Assembly: GCF_900106645.1 (NCBI RefSeq)
Contig: NZ_FNMV01000002.1
Span: forward strand, 62,001 to 126,000
DNA from: Flavobacterium degerlachei
Lineage (GTDB): Bacteria > Bacteroidota > Bacteroidia > Flavobacteriales > Flavobacteriaceae
Direction of reading: 5' to 3'
DNA: 64,000 nucleotides
Both the position numbers and the translations under genes were made by a program. Of the stretch, positions 2,837 to 26,352 are shown one piece after another (the stretch's first letter is position 1; every line of letters starts with the position of its first letter). The notes beneath the pieces are model-generated. The model did no database searches. It worked only from the letters and a program-made list of their open reading frames with translations, and was not told where the DNA came from.

Positions 2837-5800
2837 ATGATCCATTTCTTTGAAAACCAAAGCAAAACTGTTTTTGCAGTACAATCGCAAAACGAAATTT
2901 CGGCTCAAGACATTTCAAAACTCAATTGGCTTTTTGCCGACTCCCATAAAATAGAAAAATCCGTATTGACGGATTTTTTTGTTGGTCCTCGTGCCACAAT
3001 GATTACGCCTTGGAGTACCAATGCTGTTGAGATTACTCAAAATATGGGGATTTCAGGTATCATTCGAATCGAAGAATTTCACAAAGCAACGGCTGATTTC
3101 ACTGATTTTGACCCGATGCTTTCTCAAAAATATTCCGAATTAAATCAAGATATTTTCACCATCGATATCAAACCAGAACCTATTTTGGACATTGATGATA
3201 TCGCAGCTTATAATAAAGCCGAAGGCTTAGCTTTGAGCCCGGAAGAAGTGGAATACTTGGATAATTTAGCAACTAAATTAGGTCGTAAATTAACGGATTC
3301 TGAAGTTTTTGGTTTTTCACAAGCCAATTCAGAGCATTGTCGTCACAAGATTTTCAACGGGAAATTTATAATTGATGGTGTTGAAAAAGAATCTTCTTTA
3401 TTCAAACTAATCAAGAAAACTTCTGCTGAAAATCCACACGATATTGTTTCAGCATATAAAGATAACGTGGCATTCGTAAAAGGACCACGCGTACAACAAT
3501 TCGCTCCAAAAAGCGCTGACAAACCTGATTTTTATGAAGTAAAGGATTTTGATTCTGTTATTTCATTAAAAGCTGAAACGCATAATTTCCCAACAACTGT
3601 AGAACCTTTCAATGGAGCGGCAACAGGTTCAGGAGGAGAAATTCGTGACCGTTTAGCAGGTGGACAAGGTTCTTTGCCATTAGCAGGAACAGCGGTTTAT
3701 ATGACTTCTTACTCAAGATTAGAAGAAAACAGACCCTGGGAAAACGGAATGACCGAAAGAAAATGGTTGTACCAAACCCCAATGGATATATTGATTAAAG
3801 CTTCTAACGGAGCTTCTGATTTTGGAAACAAATTCGGACAACCGTTAATTACAGGTTCTGTCCTGACTTTCGAACATGAAGAAGATGCTCGTAAATTAGG
3901 TTTCGATAAAGTGATTATGCAAGCTGGTGGAATTGGATACGGAAAATTAGACCAAGCCATCAAGAAAAAACCACAAACAGGGGACAAAATTGTCATCTTG
4001 GGTGGAGAAAATTATAGAATCGGAATGGGTGGTGCTGCAGTTTCTTCTGCTGACACTGGTGCTTTTAGTTCAGGTATTGAATTAAATGCAATCCAACGTT
4101 CGAATCCAGAAATGCAAAAACGTGCTGCTAATGCCATTCGTGGATTGGTAGAAAGCGACAACAACCCAATTGTATCGATTCATGATCACGGAGCTGGAGG
4201 ACACTTAAACTGTCTTTCGGAATTAGTTGAAGATACAGGTGGATTAATTGATTTAGACAAATTGCCAGTGGGTGACCCTACTCTATCAGCAAAAGAAATA
4301 ATCGGTAACGAGTCTCAAGAAAGAATGGGATTAGTTATTGGTCAAAAAGACATTGACACTTTACAAAGAATCGCTGACAGAGAGCGTTCTCCAATGTATC
4401 AAGTAGGTGACGTGACGGGCGACCATCGTTTTACTTTCGAATCAAAAACAACTGGTGCTAAACCGATGGATTTTGCATTGGAAGACTTTTTTGGAAGTTC
4501 TCCTAAAGTGGTAATGACTGATAAAACAATCGATCGAAATTACGCTGATTTAGAATACAGCATTAAAAAAATATCAACCTACTTAGAACAAGTATTGCAG
4601 TTAGAAGCAGTGGCTTGTAAAGACTGGTTAACAAACAAAGTAGACCGTTGTGTAGGTGGAAAAGTAGCCAAACAACAAACTACCGGACCTTTGCAATTAC
4701 CATTAAATAACTGTGGTGTAATGGCCTTGGATTATTTAGGTAAAGAAGGTGTTGCGACTTCAATAGGGCATTCGCCCGTTGCGGCATTGATTGATCCTGT
4801 TGCAGGAAGCAGAACTGCCATTGCCGAAGCATTATCAAATATTGTTTGGGCACCCATCAAAAATGGTTTGGAAGGAATTTCACTTTCGGCTAACTGGATG
4901 TGGGCTTGTAAAAATGAAGGTGAAGACGCTCGTTTATACGCAGCGGTAGAAAGCTGTTCTAATTTTGCAATTGAATTAGGAATCAATATCCCAACAGGAA
5001 AAGATTCACTTTCGATGAAACAAAAATATCCAAACGAAGAAGTGATTGCACCAGGAACGGTTATCATTTCAGCAGGTGGAAATTGTACTGATATCAACAA
5101 AGTAGTAGAGCCTGTTTTACAAAGAGACGGTGGTTCTATTTATTATATCAATCTTTCTCAGGATGATTTCAAATTAGGTGGTTCGTCTTTTGCACAAACG
5201 TTGAATACTATTGGGAAAGATGCACCAACAATTAAGGACGCCGCTTTTTTCAAAAAAGCCTTCAATACGATGCAAGAATTAATTCTTGACGATCAAATTC
5301 TTGCTGGACATGATATAGGAAGTGGTGGACTGATCACAACTTTATTAGAAATGTGTTTTGCTGATTTGAATTTGGGAGCTAAAATTGACTTCTCTGTTTT
5401 TGAAGAAAAAGACATCATCAAATATTTATTTGCTGAAAACATAGGAATTGTTTTCCAAGCGAAAGACGATGCTACTTTAGAAAATAAATTAAAACAAAGC
5501 GATGTTGCTTTCTATAAATTAGGAACGGTAACCTCTGATGAAAGATTAGACTTTGGTCCTTGTGGATTAAGCATCCCACAATACAGAGACATTTGGTTTA
5601 AAACTTCATTTTTGTTAGACCAAAAGCAATCTAAAAACGGAACAGCGCAAGCGCGTTTTGACAATTATAAAAACCAAGCTTTACAGTTTACTTTCCCAGC
5701 ACATTTTACAGGAAAGAAACCCGTAATCGACTTCTCAAAACCACGTCCAAAAGCGGCAATTATCCGTGAAAAAGGAAGTAACTCTGAGCGTGAGGTTGCT

Positions 5801-7125: not shown

Positions 7126-7170
7126 AGTATTGTAACTCTACAAACAAACGTATAAAATTTGCGATTTAAT

Positions 7171-7201
7171 TGCAATTTCGACAAAACAACCGCCCTATAA
7201 C
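7171..7201 (-). repeat. Right inverted repeat of the cassette-like unit
   Basis: Reverse complement reads GTTATAGGGC, GTTGT, CGAAATT, matching 6679-6707 block for block. The first block is a 10-bp exact match. It continues on the other side as ACACGCTACC, a sequence type also seen at other accessory-gene junctions in this window (24251-24262). Confidence 0.55.
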
Positions 7202-7244
7202 ACACGCTACCATAAAGTTTAGAAAACCGAAAAAAAACAGAAAT

Positions 7245-7577
7245 ATGTTAGAAACGATTATATCAGGATTAATATTAATGATTGTAAGCGGACTTGCTTT
7301 TATAGCATATAATCATCCTGATTTTTACGCAAGAAAAATAGATTCTGTTTTATTTTTAATATTTTCAAGTTTTGTATGTTTAAATGTTTATAATTCAACT
7401 CTTGAAAAGTCTTTTTCGATACTTGAAAAAACTATTCCAAAAGAAAAGAGAATGATTGCATATAATCTTTTGACAGAAAGCAAAATATCAGACAAATATG
7501 TTTTTGGTGGTTATTTAGCAATAACCTTATATCTATGTCTTTTAGGTTTACTAAAAGTAATGAGAAATAAGACTTAG
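7245..7577 (+). CDS. Small membrane protein of unknown function
   Basis: 110 residues from ATG at 7245. The frame is open upstream to 7170, but that stretch overlaps the inverted repeat at 7171-7201 and reads as non-coding. Three predicted membrane segments: residues 4-22 (ending GLAFIAY), about 34-50 (SVLFLIFSSFVCLNVY) and 88-104 (GYLAITLYLCLLGLLK), with a basic loop KTIPKEKRM between. No known family recognised. It is the second single gene of the accessory patch behind purL and lies directly after the junction repeat. Confidence rests on length, hydrophobic pattern and frame openness. Confidence 0.55.
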   Translation: MLETIISGLILMIVSGLAFIAYNHPDFYARKIDSVLFLIFSSFVCLNVYNSTLEKSFSILEKTIPKEKRMIAYNLLTESKISDKYVFGGYLAITLYLCLLGLLKVMRNKT

Positions 7578-7743
7578 AAAAAAAACCAAAACAGAAAACT
7601 AACAACGCAGAATTTAATTAATTGTGTTAAATCTTTTTTATTCATTATTATTGTTTTTTAAAAGTGACAAAATCAAACCGAAAAGAGAAACCGTATGTAT
7701 GGTAACACACGTTTGTACTTACTGCGGGTTTAGTGGAATCTTC
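7578..7743. other. Intergenic stretch without a supported gene
   Basis: AT-rich spacer. The sequence GGTAACACACGTTTGT near 7699-7714 resembles the junction motif ACACGCTACC at 7201-7210 read on the other strand. A 66-codon frame at 7624-7824 runs through here into the hairpin repeat that follows and is not believed to be a gene. Confidence 0.4.
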
Positions 7744-7744
7744 G

Positions 7745-7990
7745 TCCCCTCTGGCGCTCGTTTGTCCGTAACTCTGGTGCTTGCTTGCAGCGAGTACCTA
7801 CTTAAATTAAAAGGTAAATCGTAGCGTTTGCAACGCGGCTCATTCCAAAATAGAGAATCTTGACCAAAGATATTGCTTCACATTTACTCGTTACGCTACT
7901 TTATTCGACTAAAAGCACATACAGTTGTTCTTGTAGATTGAAATTTAGTAGAATCACCATTTTTAATTCGTATTTTCGTTTAGCCGAAAA
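7745..7990 (+). repeat. Structured intergenic repeat, copy 1
   Basis: First of four diverged copies. Shared parts in order: CCCCTCTGG-like start; hairpin 1 at 7780-7794 (CTTGCT, loop TGC, AGCGAG); the block TACCTACTTAAATTAAAA; hairpin 2 at 7824-7836 (GCGTT, loop TGC, AACGC); GGCTCATT; GAATCTTGACC near 7855; and a distal block with GAATCACC and TATTTTCG at 7951-7978. The start is partly duplicated in this copy (CTCTGG occurs twice, 7750 and 7773). The gene encoding the SOUL-like protein follows. Confidence 0.65.
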
Positions 7991-8080
7991 TACTCGGTTA
8001 CATAAGCTGCAAACTGATTGAGAAGCAAGAATGTAGGTAGTCATTAAAAACAAAAATAGTTTTATACTTAAATTTAAGCA

Positions 8081-8683
8081 ATGAAAACAATATTAATCAT
8101 ACTCGCAGTAGTCGTTTTGGCCTTTATTATTGTACAGCTCTATGCCATAAATGGACAAAGAAATATTGAAAGCTATCCTTATGTAGTCAATAAAAAATAT
8201 GATGCTTTTGAAATACGCAGCTATGAAGCAACTTTGTTTACTTCTGTGCAACTATCCGGTAATAAATATAAAGATGCTTCTAGTAAAGGGTTTTCCATTT
8301 TAGCAGGATACATTTTTGGCGGAAATAAAAAGAATGAAAAAATAGCGATGACTTCGCCTGTAGCTATGTCTTTGGACGACTCCATGACGATGATGTTTAT
8401 GGTTCCAAAGAAATTTAAAAAAGAAACGCTTCCACAGCCTAACCAATCACAGATTAAATTTCGGGAAGAACCTGCAAAAACTGTCGCTGCAATCAGCTTT
8501 GGTGGTTGGGCTAATGATGAAAAAATAGAAAAGTACAAACAGCGATTAAAATCAGCTTTAGATGCCGAAGGAATAGCCTATACAAATCGATTTTACTTTT
8601 TAGGATACAATCCTCCATTTGAATTTTTTAATCGTAAAAACGAGATTATTGTTGAGTTGGAAAGTGATGCCCTAGCGCAATAA
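8081..8683 (+). CDS. SOUL/HBP family haem-binding-like protein, membrane-anchored
   Basis: 200 residues. An N-terminal hydrophobic helix (residues 3-23, IILAVVVLAFIIVQLYA) is likely an uncleaved anchor, leaving the domain in the periplasm. The rest matches the SOUL pattern: YEIRSY-like YDAFEIRSYEAT, then FSILAGYIFGGNKKNEKIAMTSPV (the conserved IAMTSPV motif), FMVPKKF, and C-terminal FYFLGYNPPFEFFNRKNEIIVEL. Family members bind haem or other tetrapyrroles, and the physiological role in bacteria is not settled. It is a lone gene between structured repeat copies 1 and 2; the stop codon is only 7 bp before copy 2. Confidence 0.88.
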   Translation: MKTILIILAVVVLAFIIVQLYAINGQRNIESYPYVVNKKYDAFEIRSYEATLFTSVQLSGNKYKDASSKGFSILAGYIFGGNKKNEKIAMTSPVAMSLDDSMTMMFMVPKKFKKETLPQPNQSQIKFREEPAKTVAAISFGGWANDEKIEKYKQRLKSALDAEGIAYTNRFYFLGYNPPFEFFNRKNEIIVELESDALAQ

Positions 8684-8690
8684 AATGATT

Positions 8691-8985
8691 ATGCCCCTCT
8701 GGTTCTCATTTACAATGAGGACCTACTTTTTTTTGAAAACAAAGTATAGCGTTTGCAACGCGGCTCATTAAAAAAATGAATCTTGGCCGATGATATTACT
8801 TTGCCAGTTAGTAGCCATTCGTAGCTTCCTCATTCAGCTTGGTAAAGTTGCATTGAAATCTCCCCTATTTACCCATTGCGCCACATTACTCAACTAAAAA
8901 CTGCCAAACTACCACCAGAACAGTTCTTTATCCATTTCCATGTTTAGTTTAATTCCAGTTTTTTATCGTATTTTTACATACCCTA
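8691..8985 (+). repeat. Structured intergenic repeat, copy 2
   Basis: Starts CCCCTCTGG 7 bp after the SOUL stop. Hairpin 1 at 8705-8719 is CTCATT, loop TAC, AATGAG; hairpin 2 at 8749-8761 is GCGTT, loop TGC, AACGC; the spacer between them is 29 nt, as in copy 1. GCGGCTCATT and GAATCTTGGCC follow, as in copy 1. The distal part has CTCAACTAAAAA, ACCACCAGAACAGTT and TCGTATTTTTAC. The remaining 100 bp to the next ATG show no gene. Confidence 0.65.
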
Positions 8986-9088
8986 AAACATTAGCTTTCA
9001 TAAACTTACAAATCTACTACAGCCAGCTGGCAATTATTGAGTTCTTAAATAATAATTAGAAAAATATAATTAAACTAAAAACAAAATC

Positions 9089-9496
9089 ATGACAGCAAAT
9101 CAAAACCTTCAAGTAATTGACAATTTATACAAAGCTTTTTCAACTAGTGATATGCCCACTGTTTTGGGATCAATGGATTCTAAAATCGAATGGAATGAAG
9201 CCGAAAGTAATTCGCTTGCAGACGGCAATCCCTACATTGGTCCAGATGCAATTTTAGAAGGCGTATTTGCACGTCTTGGAGCGAACCACGAATACTTTGC
9301 GTTAAAAGATGTTGAAACTCACAGCATGAGTGATAATAAAGTCTTAGCTACCCTACGATATGATGGTAAAGTAAAGGCAACAGGAAAAACCTATAATGCA
9401 CAAGCCGCACATCTATGGACGCTTAATGACGAAGGTGCAATTACTGCCTTTCAGCAATATGTAGATACGAAGAAGTTAGCAGACTCTGAAAAGTAA
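9089..9496 (+). CDS. NTF2/SnoaL-like protein (ketosteroid-isomerase fold)
   Basis: 135 residues. Pattern typical of SnoaL-like polyketide cyclase/limonene hydrolase relatives: N-terminal helix NLQVIDNLYKAFSTSDMPTVLGSMDSKIEWNEAES, then GPDAILEGVF, strands KVLATLRYDGKVKATGKTY and AHLWTLNDEGAITAFQQYVDT. The cone-shaped fold binds small hydrophobic ligands; no substrate can be assigned. Cytosolic, no signal peptide. It is a single gene between repeat copies 2 and 3, and its stop lies about 10 bp before copy 3. Confidence 0.85.
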   Translation: MTANQNLQVIDNLYKAFSTSDMPTVLGSMDSKIEWNEAESNSLADGNPYIGPDAILEGVFARLGANHEYFALKDVETHSMSDNKVLATLRYDGKVKATGKTYNAQAAHLWTLNDEGAITAFQQYVDTKKLADSEK

Positions 9497-9506
9497 TTAC
9501 AATACT

Positions 9507-9850
9507 CCTCCCTTCTGATGCTCGATTGTATCGAGTATCTATTTCAATTAGAATGAAAACCTAGCGTTTACATGGCTGATAATTAAGGTAACCACACAGA
9601 TTGGTTTCTTTTAGCCTGAAATAGTAAGTCGATAAAAAAATTCTATAAACTAAAAAGTTCCAAAAAACACTCCTGATAACATATTGTTATAGATCATTGG
9701 AATGTTTAAATTAGCGCAAAGTCAGGAAACTTTATGCAGCTAGAATTGATAGTAATCCCCAATACTCGCTATCCACCTACAGCTAAAACATCTATTTATC
9801 CCTTTGTAAATTGAATAGAATTACGGTTTTAATTTGTATTTTCGTAAAAC
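9507..9850 (+). repeat. Structured intergenic repeat, copy 3
   Basis: CTCCCTTCTGATG begins the copy. Hairpin 1 at 9521-9535 is CTCGAT, loop TGT, ATCGAG (perfect 6-bp stem, sequence different from the other copies). The hairpin 2 site starts at 9564, 28 nt further (AGCGTTTAC, only a short stem remains). The distal block has GAATTACGG and TATTTTCG at 9837-9844, as in copy 1. ACCACCAGAACATC just before the next ATG matches a block of copy 2. Confidence 0.6.
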
Positions 9851-9902
9851 TTAAAAGGCTCGTTTTAATAACTTGAAAAACGGCTAGAACCACCAGAACA
9901 TC

Positions 9903-10415
9903 ATGGAAAAATATTTGCGCCAATTAATTTCAATAGTATTTGAAGATCAAAAAGAAGTCTTTACTGGTTTTCTAATTGACTGGACCGAAGATTGGATACT
10001 ACTAAAGAATAATCCCGTTGATTTTATAATTGATGGTTACACCATTTTGAAAAATAAAAATGTGAAGTCCATTATTCAAGATGAAGATTATGAATTCACA
10101 GAAAGAGTAATCAAACTTAAAGGTTTAAAAACAAGTGCTGAAGAAATAATTCCACTTAATGATTTACCTACAATTATTAATTTTCTCGCAAACAAGTACG
10201 AGATTTTCCAAATTGCAAAAAAATCTGACAAAGCGGTTTATCTTGGTAAACTTATTGAACTCAATGATGAAGAACTGATTATCGATTTCTTGGGAGCTGA
10301 AGGGAAATTTGACGGTGAAATGGATTTTAAGCTAAACAAAATAAGAGTAATCGAATTTGACACTGATTATATTAACTCATTGAAATTAATTATCGCAGAA
10401 GATAACAAGAACTAA
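9903..10415 (+). CDS. Protein of unknown function with two similar halves (Sm-like appearance)
   Basis: 170 residues, not recognised. The sequence falls into two similar parts: GFLIDWTEDWILLKNNPVDF then DGYTILKNKNVKSIIQDEDY (about residues 22-66), and GKLIELNDEELIIDFLGAEG then FKLNKIRVIEFDTDY (about 118-160). Each has the beta-strand, Gly-x-hydrophobic, 'hydrophobic-x-D' rhythm of small barrel (Sm-like) folds. The match is weak and by eye only. No signal peptide or membrane segment. It lies between repeat copies 3 and 4 as a single gene. Real coding status is supported by length and by the ATG directly behind a repeat block. Confidence 0.65.
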   Translation: MEKYLRQLISIVFEDQKEVFTGFLIDWTEDWILLKNNPVDFIIDGYTILKNKNVKSIIQDEDYEFTERVIKLKGLKTSAEEIIPLNDLPTIINFLANKYEIFQIAKKSDKAVYLGKLIELNDEELIIDFLGAEGKFDGEMDFKLNKIRVIEFDTDYINSLKLIIAEDNKN

Positions 10416-10421
10416 GCAGGT

Positions 10422-10757
10422 CTCCCACTGGCGAATGAATCTTTTCGTGTGTTATGTGTTTAATAAAAGCTTTATTTTCTATACTTAATGTACATTCTGT
10501 TGCTTGCTTGCAGTGAGTTCCTACTTAAATTAAAAAGCAATACGCAGCACTTGTAACTGGCTTATAAAAAAAGGGATCTCTTTTTTATGAGATTCCTTTA
10601 CTAATTCTCTTTACCTCTACTGTCTTCCTTCAACAGCAGGACAAGATTATACTTAATTTACTCCTAGCATTTCATTATTCGAATAACAGCAAGCAAACCA
10701 CCAACAGTAGTTTACGTAGCTCTGGATTTTAGTGCAATCACCGTTTTCATAACTCTC
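10422..10757 (+). repeat. Structured intergenic repeat, copy 4
   Basis: CTCCCACTGGCG follows the stop directly; about 65 bp of extra sequence then separates it from hairpin 1 at 10503-10517 (CTTGCT, loop TGC, AGTGAG). CCTACTTAAATTAAAAAG follows as in copy 1, and the hairpin 2 site starts at 10547 after 29 nt, with only weak pairing. A further hairpin GGGATCTC/GAGATTCC lies near 10573-10595. The distal block keeps ACCACCAACAG and CAATCACCGTTTTCAT. Confidence 0.6.
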
Positions 10758-15708: not shown

Positions 15709-16899
15709 GTGAAGAAATCAGTCTCAATTATTGGAGGAGGACCTGCAGCATTTTTACTCGCCGCATTTCTCGATCCGCAGAAGTTCAATGTTAGCATTTT
15801 TGAAAAAAATAAAACCCTTGGAAGAAAATTCCTTGTGGCCGGAAAAGGCGGATTTAATCTTACCCATTCTGAACCCATAGCGCAACTGATAGAACGCTAT
15901 ACTCCATCTGATTTTATTCAGGAAGCCCTACTCGATTTTGATAATGACGATTTTCAAAAATGGATTGACCTCATGGGAATCCCTACTTACATAGGTAGCA
16001 GCAAACGTGTATATCCTGAAAGCGGAATCAAGCCAATTGCCGTGTTAAACGCAATTCTTGATGTCCTCAATAAACGAGGTGTTGCTATTCAATACCAACA
16101 TAGTTGGAAGGGCTGGAATGCAAACCATGATCTTGTTTTTAATGATTCCACAGCAATTAAGGCTGACCACACTATTTTTGCCCTTGGCGGCGGCAGCTGG
16201 AAAATAACTGGCTCTGACGGAACTTGGCTTAATTTATTCCATAATAAAGGGGTTGATGTTGTTCCTTTTAAAGCCTCAAATTGCGCTTACGCTGTCAACT
16301 GGGAAAGTAATTTCATCGATACATTTGAGGGAACTGCGCTTAAAAATATAGCCATAAGCTGCGGTGATAAAAGTCAAAAGGGAGAAATGGTGATTACGCG
16401 TTTTGGTTTAGAGGGAAATGCTATTTATGCCATCAGCCCGCAAATACGGGAAGAGCTTAACAACAAGCAAAAAGCAACGGTCTATCTGGATTTGAAACCA
16501 ACATTGAGTTATGATGATTTGCTTCAAAAGATAAAAAAGTCAAACATAAAAAAGACGAGCGAGAAATTACAAAAAGAGCTCAAATTGACCCCTGCGCAAG
16601 TTGGACTTTTGAAAATATTTCTTTCGAAAGAAACCTACCTCAACTCGGAACTTTTAGCACAAAACATCAAAAAACTCCCTATAGAAATCTCGGCTTCTGC
16701 ACTATTGGATGAAGCCATATCAACGACTGGCGGCATTAAACTAAATGCCTTAGATGACAATTTTCAATTGAAAATGATGGAGAACCACTATTGTATTGGA
16801 GAAATGATAGACTTAGATGCTCCCACGGGAGGCTATTTACTTCAATCTTGCTTTAGCATGGGTGTATATCTTGCACGACACCTGAATTCCATTTCCTAA
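15709..16899 (+). CDS. HI0933/YhiN-type FAD-dependent oxidoreductase (TIGR03862-like flavoprotein)
   Basis: 396 residues with GTG start. N-terminal dinucleotide-binding motif SIIGGGPAAFLLAAFL, followed by the family signature GRKFLVAGKGGFNLTHSEP and the later motif ALGGGSWKITGSDG. C-terminal TTGGIKLNALDDNF then GEMIDLDAPTGGYLLQSCFSMG is the usual end. Members bind FAD; their physiological reaction is not established. GTG is chosen because GKKSVSII-type N-termini are usual and a -7 box sits directly before it. Single gene, convergent with the cyclase gene. Confidence 0.9.
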   Translation: MKKSVSIIGGGPAAFLLAAFLDPQKFNVSIFEKNKTLGRKFLVAGKGGFNLTHSEPIAQLIERYTPSDFIQEALLDFDNDDFQKWIDLMGIPTYIGSSKRVYPESGIKPIAVLNAILDVLNKRGVAIQYQHSWKGWNANHDLVFNDSTAIKADHTIFALGGGSWKITGSDGTWLNLFHNKGVDVVPFKASNCAYAVNWESNFIDTFEGTALKNIAISCGDKSQKGEMVITRFGLEGNAIYAISPQIREELNNKQKATVYLDLKPTLSYDDLLQKIKKSNIKKTSEKLQKELKLTPAQVGLLKIFLSKETYLNSELLAQNIKKLPIEISASALLDEAISTTGGIKLNALDDNFQLKMMENHYCIGEMIDLDAPTGGYLLQSCFSMGVYLARHLNSIS

Positions 16900-16963
16900 T
16901 TTTCGTCAGACAAAACAAATGTTTAGTAGAAGCATTCTTGCTAGCAATCAAATTTCTACTTCA

Positions 16964-18802
16964 TTAAACAATAGTTAATTGATTGGCTTTTGGATTATTT
17001 ACGAAGTACATTTTCATCATTCCCCTATTTTTAACTTCAACCTCACCTCTATAAACACAATCAAAACTATCTTTTATCAACTCATAGGTGTTTTCAGAAA
17101 TATTGATTTTTCCGGACTCAGAGTTTGATTCCATGCGGGAAGCGATGTTGACAGAATCACCCCAAATGTCATAAGCAAATTTCTTCGTTCCCACCACTCC
17201 AGCAACAACTGGACCTGAATTAATTCCGATACGGATTTCAAAACGGGTGTGATTTAATGGATTATTATTTCTTGAATCTCTAACAAATTCAATCATTTCA
17301 AAAGCAGCAAAAACCATTTTAAAAGCATGGTCTTTCGTTGGAAAAGGCAATCCGCCTGCACACATATAACAGTCACCTACCGTTTTAATTTTTTCCAAAT
17401 TATACTTTTCAATAATTGTATCAAATTTCGAAAAATAATAATCCACAATTTCTACTAATTTCTCTGGAGGAAGCTTTTCAGCATAATGAGTAAACTCTGC
17501 AAAGTCAGTAAACAAAACAGTCACTGATTCAAATTTTTTGGCTAATACTTTTCCGTTTTTCTTTAACTCATAAGCTGTTTCCAGCGGTAGAATATTAAGC
17601 AATAAACTATCTGATCGATTTTTTTCTTCTTCAATAATGACATTGGTTTTCTCTACAAACTTATACCGCCTGTACATTCCTAGTGCAAGTAAAAAAACAA
17701 GAAATAGCGAAATAAGTGATGAAGTCATTAAAATCTGTCGGTTTTTTTTTCCCTGATTTAGTAAGTCGACTTCAGACTGCTTTTTTGAAACTTCAAAATC
17801 AGTTCTTAAATCAGCCATTTGCTGCACTGACTTTATATTGGTAACACTATCTCTATAAGCGATATGATCTTTATAATATTGGAAAGATTTCGTGTCATCT
17901 CCTTTTTTTTGATACAGTTCTGAAAGTTTAAGATTAGAGTTGCTTATTTGTTCCTTCAAGCCATATCTTTGGGCTAGTATCAGGCTCCTCTGCGCATAAT
18001 TGACTGCAATAACCCATTCGTTTTTCTTCAAATAAATATCTGACATATAAGTTAGATAATCTGAAATCGCGTAATAATCCTTTAGCTCTTCCAGAATTTT
18101 TATGGCTTCAGTTATGTAGGTTTCTGCTAGATCATTTTTCCCCTGCTCAGCATATACCATCCCAATGTTTCCAAGGTTATAAGCAGAACCAATTAAGTAG
18201 TCAGCCTTTTTAAAAAGACCTCCTGACTCTTCAAAATAGGCTAAGGCCAAATCATATTTCTTATCTTTTAAATATTCATCACCAGCGTTTAATAATACCG
18301 AAGCTAAGCCAATAGGATTATTCGTTTTTCGCAATAAGCTGATTGCTTTGTCGTAGTATTCCATCGCATTTTTAGAATTCCCCATCACGGAATACACATC
18401 AGCAATTGAGGAAAATGCAGTTCCTTGTCCTGCAATATATTTTGCTTTGGTGGCAGCCTCTTCACTTTTAAAAAAAGCATCTAAGGACTTATTCAAATTC
18501 CCTGTAATTCTAAGTTTAGTTCCTTTTTGAAAATACCCTCGATGCAGGTATAAATAGTTGTTTTCTAATTTTGATAGTCTAATCAGCTCTTCAGCATATC
18601 GTAGCGATAAGTCGAGATCGTTTACTTCATTAAAAGATAAATTTCGTAGTAATTCGAGTTTTTCAATATTTCCAAGGTTCCCTTCCCTGTAAATTTTAAC
18701 AAGGCTATCAGCCACTTTTTGTTCCTGCGCGAACATAGACGAATGAAAAGAAAACAAAAAAAGGATGACTTTAAAGTAATATTTTAAAACACGCGGTTTC
18801 AT
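16964..18802 (-). CDS. TPR-containing membrane class III adenylate cyclase
   Basis: 612 residues. Signal sequence (residues 8-25), periplasmic TPR helices (about 65-330; NLGNIGMVYAEQGKNDLAETY), membrane helix 357-376 and short coiled linker, then a cytoplasmic class III cyclase domain (425-600). Metal aspartates D433 (LFTDF) and D477 (TVGDCYM), purine-specifying K473 and D545 (FAYDIWGDS), transition-state N552 and R556 (VNIASRM) are all present, so it should make cAMP from ATP and appears active. The Lys/Asp pair argues against guanylate cyclase. Its start codon shares one base with the stop of the upstream gene, implying translational coupling. Confidence 0.92.
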   Translation of the reverse strand: MKPRVLKYYFKVILFLFSFHSSMFAQEQKVADSLVKIYREGNLGNIEKLELLRNLSFNEVNDLDLSLRYAEELIRLSKLENNYLYLHRGYFQKGTKLRITGNLNKSLDAFFKSEEAATKAKYIAGQGTAFSSIADVYSVMGNSKNAMEYYDKAISLLRKTNNPIGLASVLLNAGDEYLKDKKYDLALAYFEESGGLFKKADYLIGSAYNLGNIGMVYAEQGKNDLAETYITEAIKILEELKDYYAISDYLTYMSDIYLKKNEWVIAVNYAQRSLILAQRYGLKEQISNSNLKLSELYQKKGDDTKSFQYYKDHIAYRDSVTNIKSVQQMADLRTDFEVSKKQSEVDLLNQGKKNRQILMTSSLISLFLVFLLALGMYRRYKFVEKTNVIIEEEKNRSDSLLLNILPLETAYELKKNGKVLAKKFESVTVLFTDFAEFTHYAEKLPPEKLVEIVDYYFSKFDTIIEKYNLEKIKTVGDCYMCAGGLPFPTKDHAFKMVFAAFEMIEFVRDSRNNNPLNHTRFEIRIGINSGPVVAGVVGTKKFAYDIWGDSVNIASRMESNSESGKINISENTYELIKDSFDCVYRGEVEVKNRGMMKMYFVNNPKANQLTIV

Positions 18803-19200
18803 TATGGATTTATCGCTAGTTTGGGGTCTATATGGTACTGACCTCCACGCTTTTTTTCGCCATTATAAACTGTAAAAAACAAAGTATACGTTTCATGATT
18901 ACCATTGGTATCTTTCTTCACAGCTGCAGAAACTTTTTCAGGATGGCCATGCCCTTTCATGTTATCTTCTTTAAAAACATTATTACCACTGTGGTGATGC
19001 ACTTTGGTAATATTGACTATATCCGTTTCTGGGGTGCTACTGGATACTCCTTTCCAGATAATAGTATCCCCTACTTTTGCCAAAGTTGAAAAGTCTTCGT
19101 TACTAATTCCCGGTTCTTGCCCAAAATTGCTGCAAGAATCTACATTTTTTTCTGAAATTTTACTGGTGTCAACATGTAGTGTGACGATTACATCTGCCAT
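18802..19200 (-). CDS. Unknown 132-aa protein translationally coupled to the adenylate cyclase
   Basis: Not recognised. 132 residues, no signal peptide, no membrane segment. Features seen: beta-rich start DVIVTLHVDTSKI, KVGDTIIWKG (a strand typical of cupredoxin-like sandwiches, weak), a His-rich stretch HHHSGNN with GHGHPEK, and an end TVYNGEKKRGGQYHIDPKL. Stop TAA and the cyclase ATG overlap as TAATG, so the two are one operon and probably one process. A ligand or metal-binding partner of the cyclase is possible but is pure inference from coupling. Confidence 0.7.
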   Translation of the reverse strand: MADVIVTLHVDTSKISEKNVDSCSNFGQEPGISNEDFSTLAKVGDTIIWKGVSSSTPETDIVNITKVHHHSGNNVFKEDNMKGHGHPEKVSAAVKKDTNGNHETYTLFFTVYNGEKKRGGQYHIDPKLAINP

Positions 19201-24094: not shown

Positions 24095-24134
24095 TGTTTA
24101 TTTTGTTTAATGCTATTTATTGAGTAGTGGTTAG

Positions 24135-24275
24135 TATAACGTTCCAGCGCTACAAGCAGTTTGGGACTAAATTAAGCCCTATTTTCGGATTTGCCAAATC
24201 ATCCCAAATACAAAACCAATTTCAAATTAAGCCTAATACTCAAATTACTTGTAGCGTGTGTTGGCAGATAGTTTA
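24135..24275. repeat. attC-like junction palindrome between single-gene units
   Basis: CGCTACAAG at 24148-24156 and CTTGTAGCG at 24248-24256 are exact complements 91 bp apart, with flanking CCA/TGG also matching. The right end continues as GTTGGCAGATAGTTTA (24260-24275), which ends 1 bp before the stop of the DUF2971 gene and has an inverted counterpart at 25145-25159. Length and fold (distant short inverted arms around a variable centre) resemble integron attC sites, though the standard core was not matched. Confidence 0.55.
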
Positions 24276-24276
24276 C

Positions 24277-25113
24277 TTAGTTAGTTATCTCTTCAAAATC
24301 TAATTTTACTACTAAAGGATGTGGTTTTACTTCATATATTTTAATATGTGGGTATTCTTTTTTTAGGATATGCATAAGTAAATTATAATAATGAGGATCT
24401 TTACTTTTCATAAGTTGTCCAATATAAATTTCTTTAACATCCTTTTTATCAAACTTTATTTTTCGGTCAAATGAATTAGAATTTATAGAGACTGCTCTAA
24501 ATTCTTTTTCATATTTCCAATCATAATATTTCCAACAATATTCAAATACCATAGTTAATGATTTTTGGATAATTTCCTTAACATCAGTTTTTATTGCCAC
24601 ATTTTTTAATTCTGAAATAACTTTCGAAATATTGTCGTTTGAAGGTTTGTAATCTTTTAGATACGCAACATGACTTTTAATTGCAATATTTGTATTTTGA
24701 AGTAATGATTTGTTTTCAAATTTTAAACAAAATCCAGAATAACTATTTGTATAATGTCCCCACATTAATGGATTATTATTTACAAGACTAAAACAACAAA
24801 CACCTATGTTTTCGCGATGTTTTTTTATGCCTTCACCTCCTTTAATTATGTATTCTTCTCTATTGTTCAAACAATCAAAAGGATCATTAAAATGTTTTGG
24901 ACTTGAGAAATATAAATAGCCATCTAAAAGTGAATTTAAACTTAATTCATTTTTCCCATAAAATTTATATAAATGTTCTGGGTTTATGAATTGTTCACCT
25001 TGTTTTGTTATTGAAGAAATATAACCGCCAACTCTTTCTAAACTAAAATTATGCGAATAAATATAGTCTTCATATTTCCACTCTATATTTAAGGTAAGTT
25101 CTTTTTCGTTCAT
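24277..25113 (-). CDS. DUF2971 domain protein
   Basis: 278 residues. After about 40 residues the DUF2971 pattern starts: LYKFYGKNELSLNSLLDGYLYF, then SSPKHFNDPFDCLNN, CCFSLVNNNPLMWGHYTNSYSG (conserved CFS...MWGHYA/T), FCLKFE and YEKEFRAVS. The family has no proven biochemical role; it is frequent in islands, cassettes and near defence genes. Here it is a single gene between two junction repeats (24135-24275 and 25145-25281), which supports acquisition by transfer. Codon use is very AT-rich compared with fad and purL neighbours. Confidence 0.85.
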   Translation of the reverse strand: MNEKELTLNIEWKYEDYIYSHNFSLERVGGYISSITKQGEQFINPEHLYKFYGKNELSLNSLLDGYLYFSSPKHFNDPFDCLNNREEYIIKGGEGIKKHRENIGVCCFSLVNNNPLMWGHYTNSYSGFCLKFENKSLLQNTNIAIKSHVAYLKDYKPSNDNISKVISELKNVAIKTDVKEIIQKSLTMVFEYCWKYYDWKYEKEFRAVSINSNSFDRKIKFDKKDVKEIYIGQLMKSKDPHYYNLLMHILKKEYPHIKIYEVKPHPLVVKLDFEEITN

Positions 25114-25144
25114 GAAAGTATTGTTATTTCTAATTCCGTTTTTT

Positions 25145-25281
25145 TAAATGACCGCCAACGTTATGCCACTTTGAGATGGCTGAAAGTTCGTAACCGCTCA
25201 ATTTTCGGCTTAACGAAAACTTGGTGCGAAACGATAATTCCACTAAATTCCAGCTATATCAAAACAGCGGTTGTGCGACGT
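25145..25281. repeat. Second cassette junction between DUF2971 and YD-like genes
   Basis: Right part of the DUF2971 unit: TAAATGACCGCCAAC (25145-25159) is an imperfect inverted copy of 24260-24275. AACGTTATGCCAC (25158-25170) and the closing GTTGTGCGACGTTT (25268-25281) form imperfect inverted arms about 100 bp apart. The second arm abuts the stop of the next gene. Confidence 0.5.
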
Positions 25282-26127
25282 TTATTTGTAGTAATCGTAT
25301 TCATATCTATATTCATTTAAGCCAGATAATGAATATATATTTTCAACGTACTTTTTGATTAAATCATTTTCTAAATATTCATAAACTTCATAATTTCCAT
25401 TTATTTCTTTCCCATTTTCTATGTCAAATAATTCTCTTTTGATTAGCCTGTTTTTTGAATCATAATAGAAATTGTTTCCATTTTGACCATTAGTTTCATT
25501 ATAAATAATTTTCGTTATTCGATTTTTTGTGTAAGTTGAATTTGAAGAAAATCTTAATTTTTCATTGTTATAAGATTCTGTTTTAAATTCATTTTTGTTC
25601 TCATCAAAAAACGAAATATTTTTTCTGTTTTTTAGAAAATCTCCATTTATTAACGAAATTATTTCATTTCCATTATTTCGCTTTTCAAATATCGTAGTTT
25701 GAGATATTTTGTTTTCAGAATACATTATTTCTTTATTCTTAAAATTTGAATCATCATAAAAAAACTGAAATATTAAATTACCTTTTTCATCTTTAATGTT
25801 CAAAAGGTTTTGATTTTTATCATATTCCTTTATCCATATTGTTGGTTCTTTAAATGAGGAATGCGTGGATGTTTTTTTAATTAATTTTCCATTGTCATTG
25901 TATTCGTTAGATTCAGATGTTTTTAAAAATACAGCAGAAGTAAAATTGTCCATTGATTTAAATAAAACATTACCTTTTAAATCATATTTAGATAAAGAAA
26001 CTAGATTGTTTTTGTTATCAAAAATTCTCACTTCTTTTACCTTATTTTTCACAATAACACTATCAGTATTCGTTTGGCAAAATGAGTTAAAAGTGATCAA
26101 AAATAAAAGTAATATGTTGATTTTCAT
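25282..26127 (-). CDS. Secreted YD-repeat-like protein
   Basis: 281 residues from ATG at 26127, giving a signal peptide (MKINILLLFLITFNSFC, then QTNTDS). An upstream GTG at 26151 lies inside the junction repeat and is rejected. The mature part is built of short repeated units of YD/RHS type: KYDLKGNVLFK, YNDNGKLIKKT, KEYDKNQNLLNIKDEKGNLI, YDSKNRLIKRELFD, ending YEYDYYK. It should be periplasmic or surface-exposed; function unknown. It is bounded by inverted GTTGTGCGAC repeats at 25268 and 26145. Confidence 0.75.
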   Translation of the reverse strand: MKINILLLFLITFNSFCQTNTDSVIVKNKVKEVRIFDNKNNLVSLSKYDLKGNVLFKSMDNFTSAVFLKTSESNEYNDNGKLIKKTSTHSSFKEPTIWIKEYDKNQNLLNIKDEKGNLIFQFFYDDSNFKNKEIMYSENKISQTTIFEKRNNGNEIISLINGDFLKNRKNISFFDENKNEFKTESYNNEKLRFSSNSTYTKNRITKIIYNETNGQNGNNFYYDSKNRLIKRELFDIENGKEINGNYEVYEYLENDLIKKYVENIYSLSGLNEYRYEYDYYK

Positions 26128-26164: not shown

Positions 26165-26250
26165 CATCAAATGTATACAACTTTTCTTGCCATTCAAATA
26201 AGCGCTGTAATTTCTTTCAGCTGTTTAGCACTCTTTTTCCCTTGAACCCA

Positions 26251-26352
26251 GAGCTGCATGAGGGATGGAAGTGGCATCCTTTTATAGCGCGATAGCGATA
26301 TAAAAGATACAACGGACAGCCCGACCTGTAGTTTTAACGAAAGGACATGCCC
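26251..26352 (+). ncRNA. Candidate structured RNA / interspersed intergenic element
   Basis: AGGGATGGAAGTGGCATCC, then a hairpin CTTTTATA (26279-26286)/TATAAAAG (26299-26306) whose loop carries GCGCGATAGC, then GATACAACGGACAGCCCGAC. I have a memory of very similar text (GATGGAAG-GGCATCC, hairpin, GGACAGCCCG) in many flavobacterial intergenic regions, possibly the Flavo-1 RNA motif; the name is unverified. It lies between the cassette patch and the MarR operon. Confidence 0.45.

Follow-up and report, generated by a model that had tools for sequence, protein, structure and literature searches.

In a window of 64,000 nucleotides (nt) from Flavobacterium degerlachei (contig NZ_FNMV01000002.1, positions 62,001 to 126,000 of the forward strand; "the window" is this whole stretch), four diverged repeats lie between genes, each carrying two hairpins. 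It is very likely that they are orphan, non-autonomous doublets of repetitive extragenic palindromic (REP) sequences, of the type associated with REP-associated tyrosine transposases (RAYT, or TnpA_REP). A preliminary description had proposed a possible undescribed structured element. Instead, the unit matches REP elements: it is a dispersed imperfect palindrome with a GTAG-type (GT[AG]G) foot, and its copies flank tnpA_REP in relatives, though not in its own genome. The product of this cognate gene appears, from its sequence and modelled fold, to be an HUH Y1 enzyme of the RAYT family.

A two-hairpin unit in four intergenic regions

Direct inspection of the window placed the four hairpins at 7780, 8705, 9521 and 10503, exactly where they had been described, and each belongs to a 71-nt unit of two hairpins in an intergenic region. 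Within it, hairpin 1 is followed by CTAC, and a spacer of some 25 nt separates this from hairpin 2 (GCGTT-TGC-AACGC). Hairpin 1 does possess the 6-bp stem and 3-nt loop first noted, but the stem is longer than that, since three further outer pairs (GGT..ACC, or GAT..ATC in copy 3) lie past one mismatch or G-T pair. The stems of the two hairpins of one unit are unrelated to each other. All four copies are on the plus strand: copy 1 at 7772-7842 (hairpin 1 at 7776-7798, followed by the CTAC foot and the spacer, and hairpin 2 at 7824-7836), copy 2 at 8697-8767 (hairpins at 8701-8723 and 8749-8761), copy 3 at 9513-9582 (an intact hairpin 1 at 9517-9539) and copy 4 at 10495-10565 (hairpin 1 at 10499-10521). 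Hairpin 2 is broken in copy 3, where two of five pairs fail, and in copy 4, where three of five fail and hairpin 1 has two broken pairs as well. Copies 1, 2 and 4 were joined over 79 nt at 71-73% identity in a direct-repeat search (repeat D1).

Two covariance models were used. R1 was built from nine copies of the window's own genome, the four window copies included, and delimits copy 4 as above; because its covariation is partly circular, a second, non-circular model (R2) was made from 81 distinct copies of other genomes, none from this genome. R2 finds all four regions, as the preliminary description would have it, with 91.2 bits (E 7.1e-18) for copy 1, 77.2 bits (E 8.1e-15) for copy 2, 52.6 bits (E 1.8e-9) for copy 3 and 43.1 bits (E 2.2e-7, over 10495-10564) for copy 4, a drop from 91 to 43 bits. 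The fifth match in the window has an E-value of 0.16, and the four copies alone lie below it.

The 81 copies come from the best 90 of 120 matches, after exclusion of identical sequences and of lengths outside 65-80 nt, the 30 weaker matches being unused (alignment A5). They were aligned by MAFFT, ignoring structure, and compared with 500 shuffles and with a slid pairing. Over 14 pairs, nine of them in hairpin 1, 97.2% of cells are paired, against 91.8 ± 0.4% in the shuffles and 30-56% in the slid controls, and 60 cells show a change on both sides, against 16.1 ± 2.8; none of the 500 shuffles reaches either value. Five pairs show a double change (2.9 ± 0.7 in shuffles; 6 of 500 reach five) and the count of further pair types is reached by 5 of 500 shuffles, so that three of five measures are reached by none. 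The compensatory change first read from the four stems is thus upheld in 81 independent copies. The two pairs beside the loop are distributed as UA 58, AU 19 and CG 4, and as UA 51 and CG 27, and an outer pair (column 7 with 25) is UA in 67, CG in 6 and GU in 1 of the 81 copies.

Four shared blocks had been reported in the same order in the four regions. Two of these, CCTACTTAAATTAAAA and GCGGCTCATT, are part of the hairpin unit, whereas GAATCACC and TATTTTCG come from another dispersed family, a separate repeat that is present at other places without the hairpin unit. A single long repeat in four parts is ruled out, as the two families occur apart. Rfam gives no match to the unit in the window, in keeping with the earlier statement that it is no named family; the sole Rfam family above its gathering score there is Flavo-1, at 26248-26330. 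Copies 1 and 2 also share a third stretch 3' of the unit, GAATCTTG.CC..GATATT.CTT, at 7853-7879 and 8777-8805, which presumably resembles the widespread AAGATTGCTTCG-type repeats.

The cognate transposase and the history of the copies

Clusters of the unit in other genomes contain a gene for a protein of 184 amino acids (aa) with HxH and YIHYNP motifs. The representative from locus L142 reaches 80.8 bits with NCBIfam NF047646 (REP_Tyr_transpos; cut-off 80), and that of L093 reaches 27 bits with PF01797 (cut-off 23). The predicted fold (predicted local distance difference test score, 92) has as its top match in the Protein Data Bank (PDB) the E. coli RAYT-REP complex (4er8, E 4.2e-7), followed by the TnpA proteins of ISDra2 and IS608.

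The link between unit and gene was followed in a drawn sample of 121 genomes of the genus, under strict filters. The unit occurs in 26 of them, often clustered, with 1-14 units per unit-bearing genome. A RAYT at least 75% identical is present in nine, one copy (G031) covering residues 1-123 only, where the contig ends; the remaining genomes hold relatives of 51% at most, except for a fragment of 46 residues at 72% in G060. All nine RAYT-bearing genomes hold the unit (two copies only in G089), against 17 of the 112 without such a RAYT (Fisher p 2.8e-7), and among the 26 unit-bearing genomes RAYT presence goes with higher copy number (p 0.001). The unit lies beside the gene at 9/9 cognate loci, while 21 paralogue loci gave one weak match (24.6 bits), more than 1.3 kb from the gene.

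A wider collection, limited to the best 80 of 543 RAYT loci, from which the identity classes were also drawn, gave the same picture. A unit lies within 300 bp of the RAYT in 30 of 31 loci at 75% identity or more, 7 of 8 at 60-75%, 2 of 11 at 52-60% and 2 of 30 below 52% (4 of 41 for everything under 60%). At loci of at least 75%, the nearest upstream copy is on the plus strand in 27/28 and the nearest downstream copy on the minus strand in 26/26. Plus and minus units around the RAYT differ in the foot of hairpin 2 and in the spacer (loci L142-L213), forming left and right types, which recall the two ends of IS608-like elements. Among the best 90 of 120 copies, CTAC (GTAG on the other strand) stands at the foot of hairpin 1 in 70; the foot of hairpin 2 is GTAG in 22 and ATAG in 14 of the 52 plus-strand copies, and AAAG in 26 and GTAG in 5 of the 38 on the minus strand.

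Three loci with RAYTs at 63-67% (Aequorivita L169 and L173, Altibacter L170) keep the two-hairpin layout with different stems, among them CGCTTT-TGC-AAAGCG and GCATT-TGC-AATGC (by eye), an indication that the unit changes along with its transposase. The sole exception at 75% or more is L161, with a RAYT 82% identical: by eye, hairpin 1 with a different loop is found on both sides (2331-2500 and 3053-3110), with no hairpin 2. Judging by this one locus, hairpin 1 alone may suffice for RAYT recognition.

In the window's own genome, R1 matches at 15 places with E≤1 and at 12 with E≤0.01. Only RAYT relatives of 42-44% were found there, and these 12-15 copies are therefore orphans. The two own RAYT genes (L001 on contig C33, L002 on C39) are ruled out as movers, as no unit lies nearby and other hairpins stand at their flanks; by eye, each has its own inverted hairpin (GCGCAGG..CCTGTGC and CGAAGTC..GACTTCG). 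Thirty further PF01797 loci of the genus, the best apart from these two and with open reading frames (ORFs) of 131-176 aa, are likewise ruled out for want of a unit nearby. The best two unit matches at these 32 other Y1 loci have E-values of 0.46 and 0.97.

The RAYT of the unit may be compared with TnpA_REP subclass 2.6 of the Bacteroidetes, described as having a median of 179 aa, a HuH-to-Y distance of 82, the motifs NH[LIV]H, WQ and YIH[QN]NP and an SS tail, with repeats that lack GT[AG]G, are more weakly structured and are termed "atypical" (PMC6006769). As in these REPtrons, the gene lies between hairpins that are copied elsewhere in the genome. The protein is similar in length, and in an alignment of 34 of the 80 loci (A6) the HuH-to-Y distance is 81, W is followed by Q in 23/34, YIHxNP is present in most (YIHYNP in 18/34) and the SS tail (S163 S164) is invariant, as are HxH, W and Y. 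In contrast to the published description, the HuH starts mostly with SH (25/34; NH in 9/34), hairpin 1 has nine pairs with CTAC/GTAG at its foot in the 70 copies counted above, and each unit pairs two dissimilar hairpins in a constant arrangement, in a left or a right type.

Dimers of GTAG REPs are described as tail-tail heterodimers with spacers mostly of 20-100 bp (PMC3733652), and our unit is alike in its two hairpins with different stems, its inner GTAG ends and its spacer length. That study seems not to deal with the present family, and Flavobacter and Cytophaga are not mentioned in its main text. By our own reading, the unit is such a tail-tail heterodimer. REPINs are pairs of like REPs, that is, inverted copies of one REP; here hairpins 1 and 2 differ in stem, and a unit-bearing genome holds 1-14 units. 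With the Pseudomonas REPINs (PMC3116915) the unit shares its non-autonomy, its link to a RAYT and its inverted hairpin pairs. A literature survey limited to titles and abstract openings found no treatment of REPs in Flavobacterium.

These features are consistent with the following scenario. The two hairpins face away from each other, and a putative guide motif for the transposase lies at the inner foot of each: CTAC following hairpin 1 (GTAG when read on the complementary strand), and GTAG, ATAG or AAAG preceding hairpin 2. In an ancestor or relative, the 184-aa HUH single-strand transposase (TnpA_REP/RAYT) would bind the folded single strand. By analogy with E. coli TnpA_REP, which is described as binding folded single-stranded REP, requiring GTAG and cutting at the adjacent CT (PMC8266576), it may then have cut beside the hairpin and put copies elsewhere. 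No such transposase is seen in the window's genome now, so that the copies would be relics decaying in place.

Copy 1 shares its ancestry with a relative, G156. There the region of the SOUL gene that follows copy 1 is 90% identical over 764 bases, and the orthologue of copy 1 is 81% identical over 106 bases and scores 71.1 bits with R2. The third stretch after copy 1 is also retained in G156. At the place of copy 2, a short remnant seen by eye, below R2 detection, would be a decayed copy; taken with copy 1, it makes it probable that copies 1 and 2 predate the split from G156.

attC-like cassette sites beside the unit

The outer blocks GAATCACC and TATTTTCG are attC-like cassette sites, a family separate from the REP unit. 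An nhmmer profile (b2) built from sites of the own genome has no match at E≤0.01 in 262,116 bases of reversed sequence. Contig C26 of the own genome carries ten sites on one strand at 184-197 kb, with more to 208 kb, and shorter arrays are found on C15, on C43 and at 24134-25286 of the window. The arrays, at 3392-15811 of L259 (G000:C26:181000-200000), 3595-8425 of L260 and 5791-11151 of L261 (minus strand), keep to one strand with mostly single genes between the sites.

Integron cassettes in an array carry complementary boxes at their two ends. The same rule was examined at 76 attC-like sites, which gave 48 consecutive pairs within 2.5 kb, of which 45 were scorable (13 from own contigs, one from the window and 31 from other genomes, covering the window, L259-L261 and 14 other loci). 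In 42 of the 45, at least five of the seven variable positions are complementary between the 3' box of one site and the 5' box of the site that follows. The mean match of 6.27 of 7 was reached by none of 10,000 permutations (2.75 ± 0.20), and the controls gave 2.80 for boxes of the same site and 2.63 for the opposite neighbour. The pairs are not all independent, because L276 supplies 16 of the 45 and repeats some boxes. The misses are L259 13460->14852 (1 of 7, with a weak site between), L260 7065->8289 (3 of 7) and window 25142->24134 (4 of 7).

A tyrosine recombinase of 584 aa precedes the C26 array (L259 542-2296, plus strand; PF00589, E 3.5e-38). It reaches 217.2 bits with TIGR02249, whose cut-off of 265 is passed in none of the 121 genus genomes. 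In the PDB, the integron integrase IntI4 (2a3v, E 3e-38) matches this protein best, ahead of a XerC-like protein (E 3.5e-37). This recombinase, the sole protein aligned, has 28 residues opposite the 70 residues 178-247 of IntI4, which we take to be the place of the IntI-specific domain, and by this alignment it seems to be without the IntI-specific stretch. Of 14 further integrase-like loci (L276-L289), nine are followed by sites on the strand of the gene, at one (L289) the sites lie on the opposite side, and the remaining four lack sites, two of them with less than 1.6 kb of contig downstream. The 14 comprise nine of the ten best TIGR02249 loci, the tenth being the own one, and five lower ones picked by hand; G090 and G095 were chosen once a nearby site was known, and G030 and G066 were left out. 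Downstream sites on the same strand are present at 7/10 of the best loci, the own one included, and at 3/5 of the others.

The outer blocks are thus like attC sites and integrons as described (PMC9024848, PMC9668308) in their one-strand palindromic sites with single genes between, their complementary cassette-end boxes and the integron-integrase-like gene before many of the arrays examined; unlike integrons, the own recombinase lies below the TIGR02249 cut-off and apparently has no IntI-specific stretch. For the Bacteroidetes, only lone integrases from earlier work and one complete integron, in Salinibacter, are described with IntegronFinder 2.0 (PMC9024848), Bacteroidota are named among integron-bearing phyla (PMC8618304, PMC9668308), and intI is given for the Bacteroidetes/Chlorobi group (PMC2426708). 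Titles and abstract openings of the open-licence literature yielded no account of cassette arrays in Flavobacterium, which is weak evidence of novelty.

Close to the four copies, the 5' half of an attC-like site lies directly before copy 1 (7700-7745, plus strand; b2 E 0.0012). By eye, its box TATGGTAAC (7698-7706) is complementary in 8 of 9 positions to GCTACCATA (7206-7214), in line with the cassette rule for the gene that they enclose. A degenerate site with the GAATCACC and TATTTTCG blocks follows copy 1 (7939-8014, plus strand; b2 E 5.7e-9); G156 has kept it too, ahead of its SOUL gene. Relics of attC-like sites are weak or undetected at copies 2 to 4: a possible relic with the TATTTTCG block (direct repeat D2) follows copy 3 (9809-9873, plus strand; nhmmer E 1.3) and another follows copy 4 (10701-10747, plus strand; nhmmer E 0.029). 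The relics at 7.2-10.8 kb offer only single boxes, seen by eye, and the box pair of the SOUL gene fits only if an insertion is allowed.

The genes concerned are all on the plus strand: an ORF of 135 aa before copy 1 (7170-7577; no Pfam family over cut-off), a SOUL heme-binding protein between copies 1 and 2 (8081-8683; PF04832, E 9.4e-50), a SnoaL-like protein between copies 2 and 3 (9089-9496; PF12680, E 8.9e-7) and an uncharacterised ORF of 170 aa between copies 3 and 4 (9903-10415). The four copies stand in a row of genes parted by apparently worn attC-like sites, where the REPs may have inserted singly or ridden with cassettes. Overall, an attC-like match within 1.5 kb is present at 6/42 unit loci, two of the six being the same window site, against 1/51 RAYT controls; the association of REPs and cassette sites is a hint, not proof. 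Tentatively, the region could be a decayed integron-like cassette array, served by a recombinase without the IntI domain, in which RAYT-seeded REP doublets came to lie beside folded sites, a reading that we find nearly balanced but lean slightly away from.

Elsewhere in the window, a small cassette-like island lies at 24134-25286 (minus strand), between acyl-CoA-ligase-like and marR-like genes (named by eye); it consists of a pair of attC-like sites and three ORFs, of 84, 278 and 289 aa, on that strand, and its sole box pair is the one matching in 4 of 7. Flavo-1 (RF01705, 55.1 bits, plus strand) lies before a marR-like gene. A link of this RNA to the integrase-like gene, hinted at by L259 259-337, was dropped because four further loci scanned gave no match and the window copy precedes the marR-like gene. 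In L259, a group II intron with a reverse transcriptase (16832-18815, minus strand) adjoins an attC-like site; attC-seeking group II introns are known.

Alternative readings and significance

Several observations weigh against REP doublets as the explanation. Folded as single-stranded DNA, copy 4 is equalled by 186 of 200 shuffles on one strand and by all 200 on the other, and copy 1 is marginal (28 and 87 of 200); copies 2 and 3 beat their shuffles, with 0-10 of 200 as good. R1, which served for many of the genome and locus scans, was built partly from the four window copies. The two stems of the unit are unlike each other, whereas a classic REPIN joins two like REPs. No cognate RAYT was found in the own draft genome (43 contigs), where the best relatives, at 42% and 44%, are flanked by other hairpins (by eye). 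Seventeen genomes, this one included, hold the unit without a RAYT of at least 75%; G060 keeps the 46-residue fragment at 72% and G059 fragments at 51% and 45%. PF01797 is narrowly missed by the RAYT of L100 (22.7 bits; cut-off 23), and a PDB sequence search with the RAYT returned no real relative (best E 0.62). Finally, a clean empty site was not found: in G019, G245, G306 and G214 the SOUL gene is present and the flanks covered lack the unit (best E 0.25), but these flanks cannot be aligned past about 40 bp.

Other readings account for parts of the evidence. A structured RNA, acting as cis-regulator or small RNA of the neighbouring genes, would agree with the compensatory changes in the larger set and with copies lying between same-strand genes, but it is extremely improbable, since the four copies adjoin genes with no relation to one another, units lie on either side of RAYT genes in opposite orientations and also form tandem and inverted clusters, Rfam has no match and the copies lose pairs. 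The option of folded single-stranded DNA in the preliminary description fits a REP and its transposase, whereas the selection on RNA that it offered beside this is not implied, because REP pairing reflects recognition of folded single-stranded DNA by the transposase, as shown for E. coli TnpA_REP (PMC8266576), and palindrome-repairing mutation could add paired changes. Such mutation, in which template switching, known for quasipalindromes, perfects a palindrome, might even explain the paired changes without selection for folding, and their concentration in the two pairs beside the loop speaks for it. We nevertheless hold it unlikely: the outer pair of columns 7 and 25 also changes on both sides, and the RAYT link and the conserved foot point to recognition in any case.

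Equally doubtful is that the hairpins now act as transcription terminators or stabilisers of the mRNA 3' end of the preceding gene, which could also be a second use atop a REP origin. Terminator-like matches do fall on the plus strand at 8701-8723 and 9517-9539 and on the minus strand at 8761-8749, and the region holds eight such matches against 1.6 ± 1.4 in shuffles; yet only copies 2 and 3 of the four match on the plus strand, the T tract of copy 2 is absent from the family consensus, and neither the second hairpin nor the RAYT link is explained. It is also highly improbable that the hairpins belonged to the attC-like sites from the start and are not mobile elements in their own right. Units do stand beside attC-like relics here, clearly so for copy 1, which in G156 too is found together with the attC-like site before the SOUL gene, and the 6/42 against 1/51 loci point the same way. 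Against this, 36 of the 42 unit loci have no attC-like match, the array stretches on C26, C15 and C43 (L259-L262) have no unit (best E 0.31), and an attC-like match occurs at only 2 of 27 cognate-RAYT loci of the wider collection.

As orphan REP doublets, an unexplained structured repeat becomes a recognisable mobile element with its likely mover identified, and the family supplies a clear REP unit for a RAYT resembling a group of the Bacteroidetes with repeats published as atypical. Of wider interest, and more novel than the REPs, is the occurrence in a Bacteroidetes genus of cassette-like sites that obey the integron box rule. If the recombinase before the arrays does recombine them, cassette gene capture would be commoner than current detection shows. 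On the tentative reading of the region given above, integron finders built on the IntI-specific domain could miss this integron-like system of Flavobacterium, and two systems acting on single-stranded hairpin DNA would be joined in one region.

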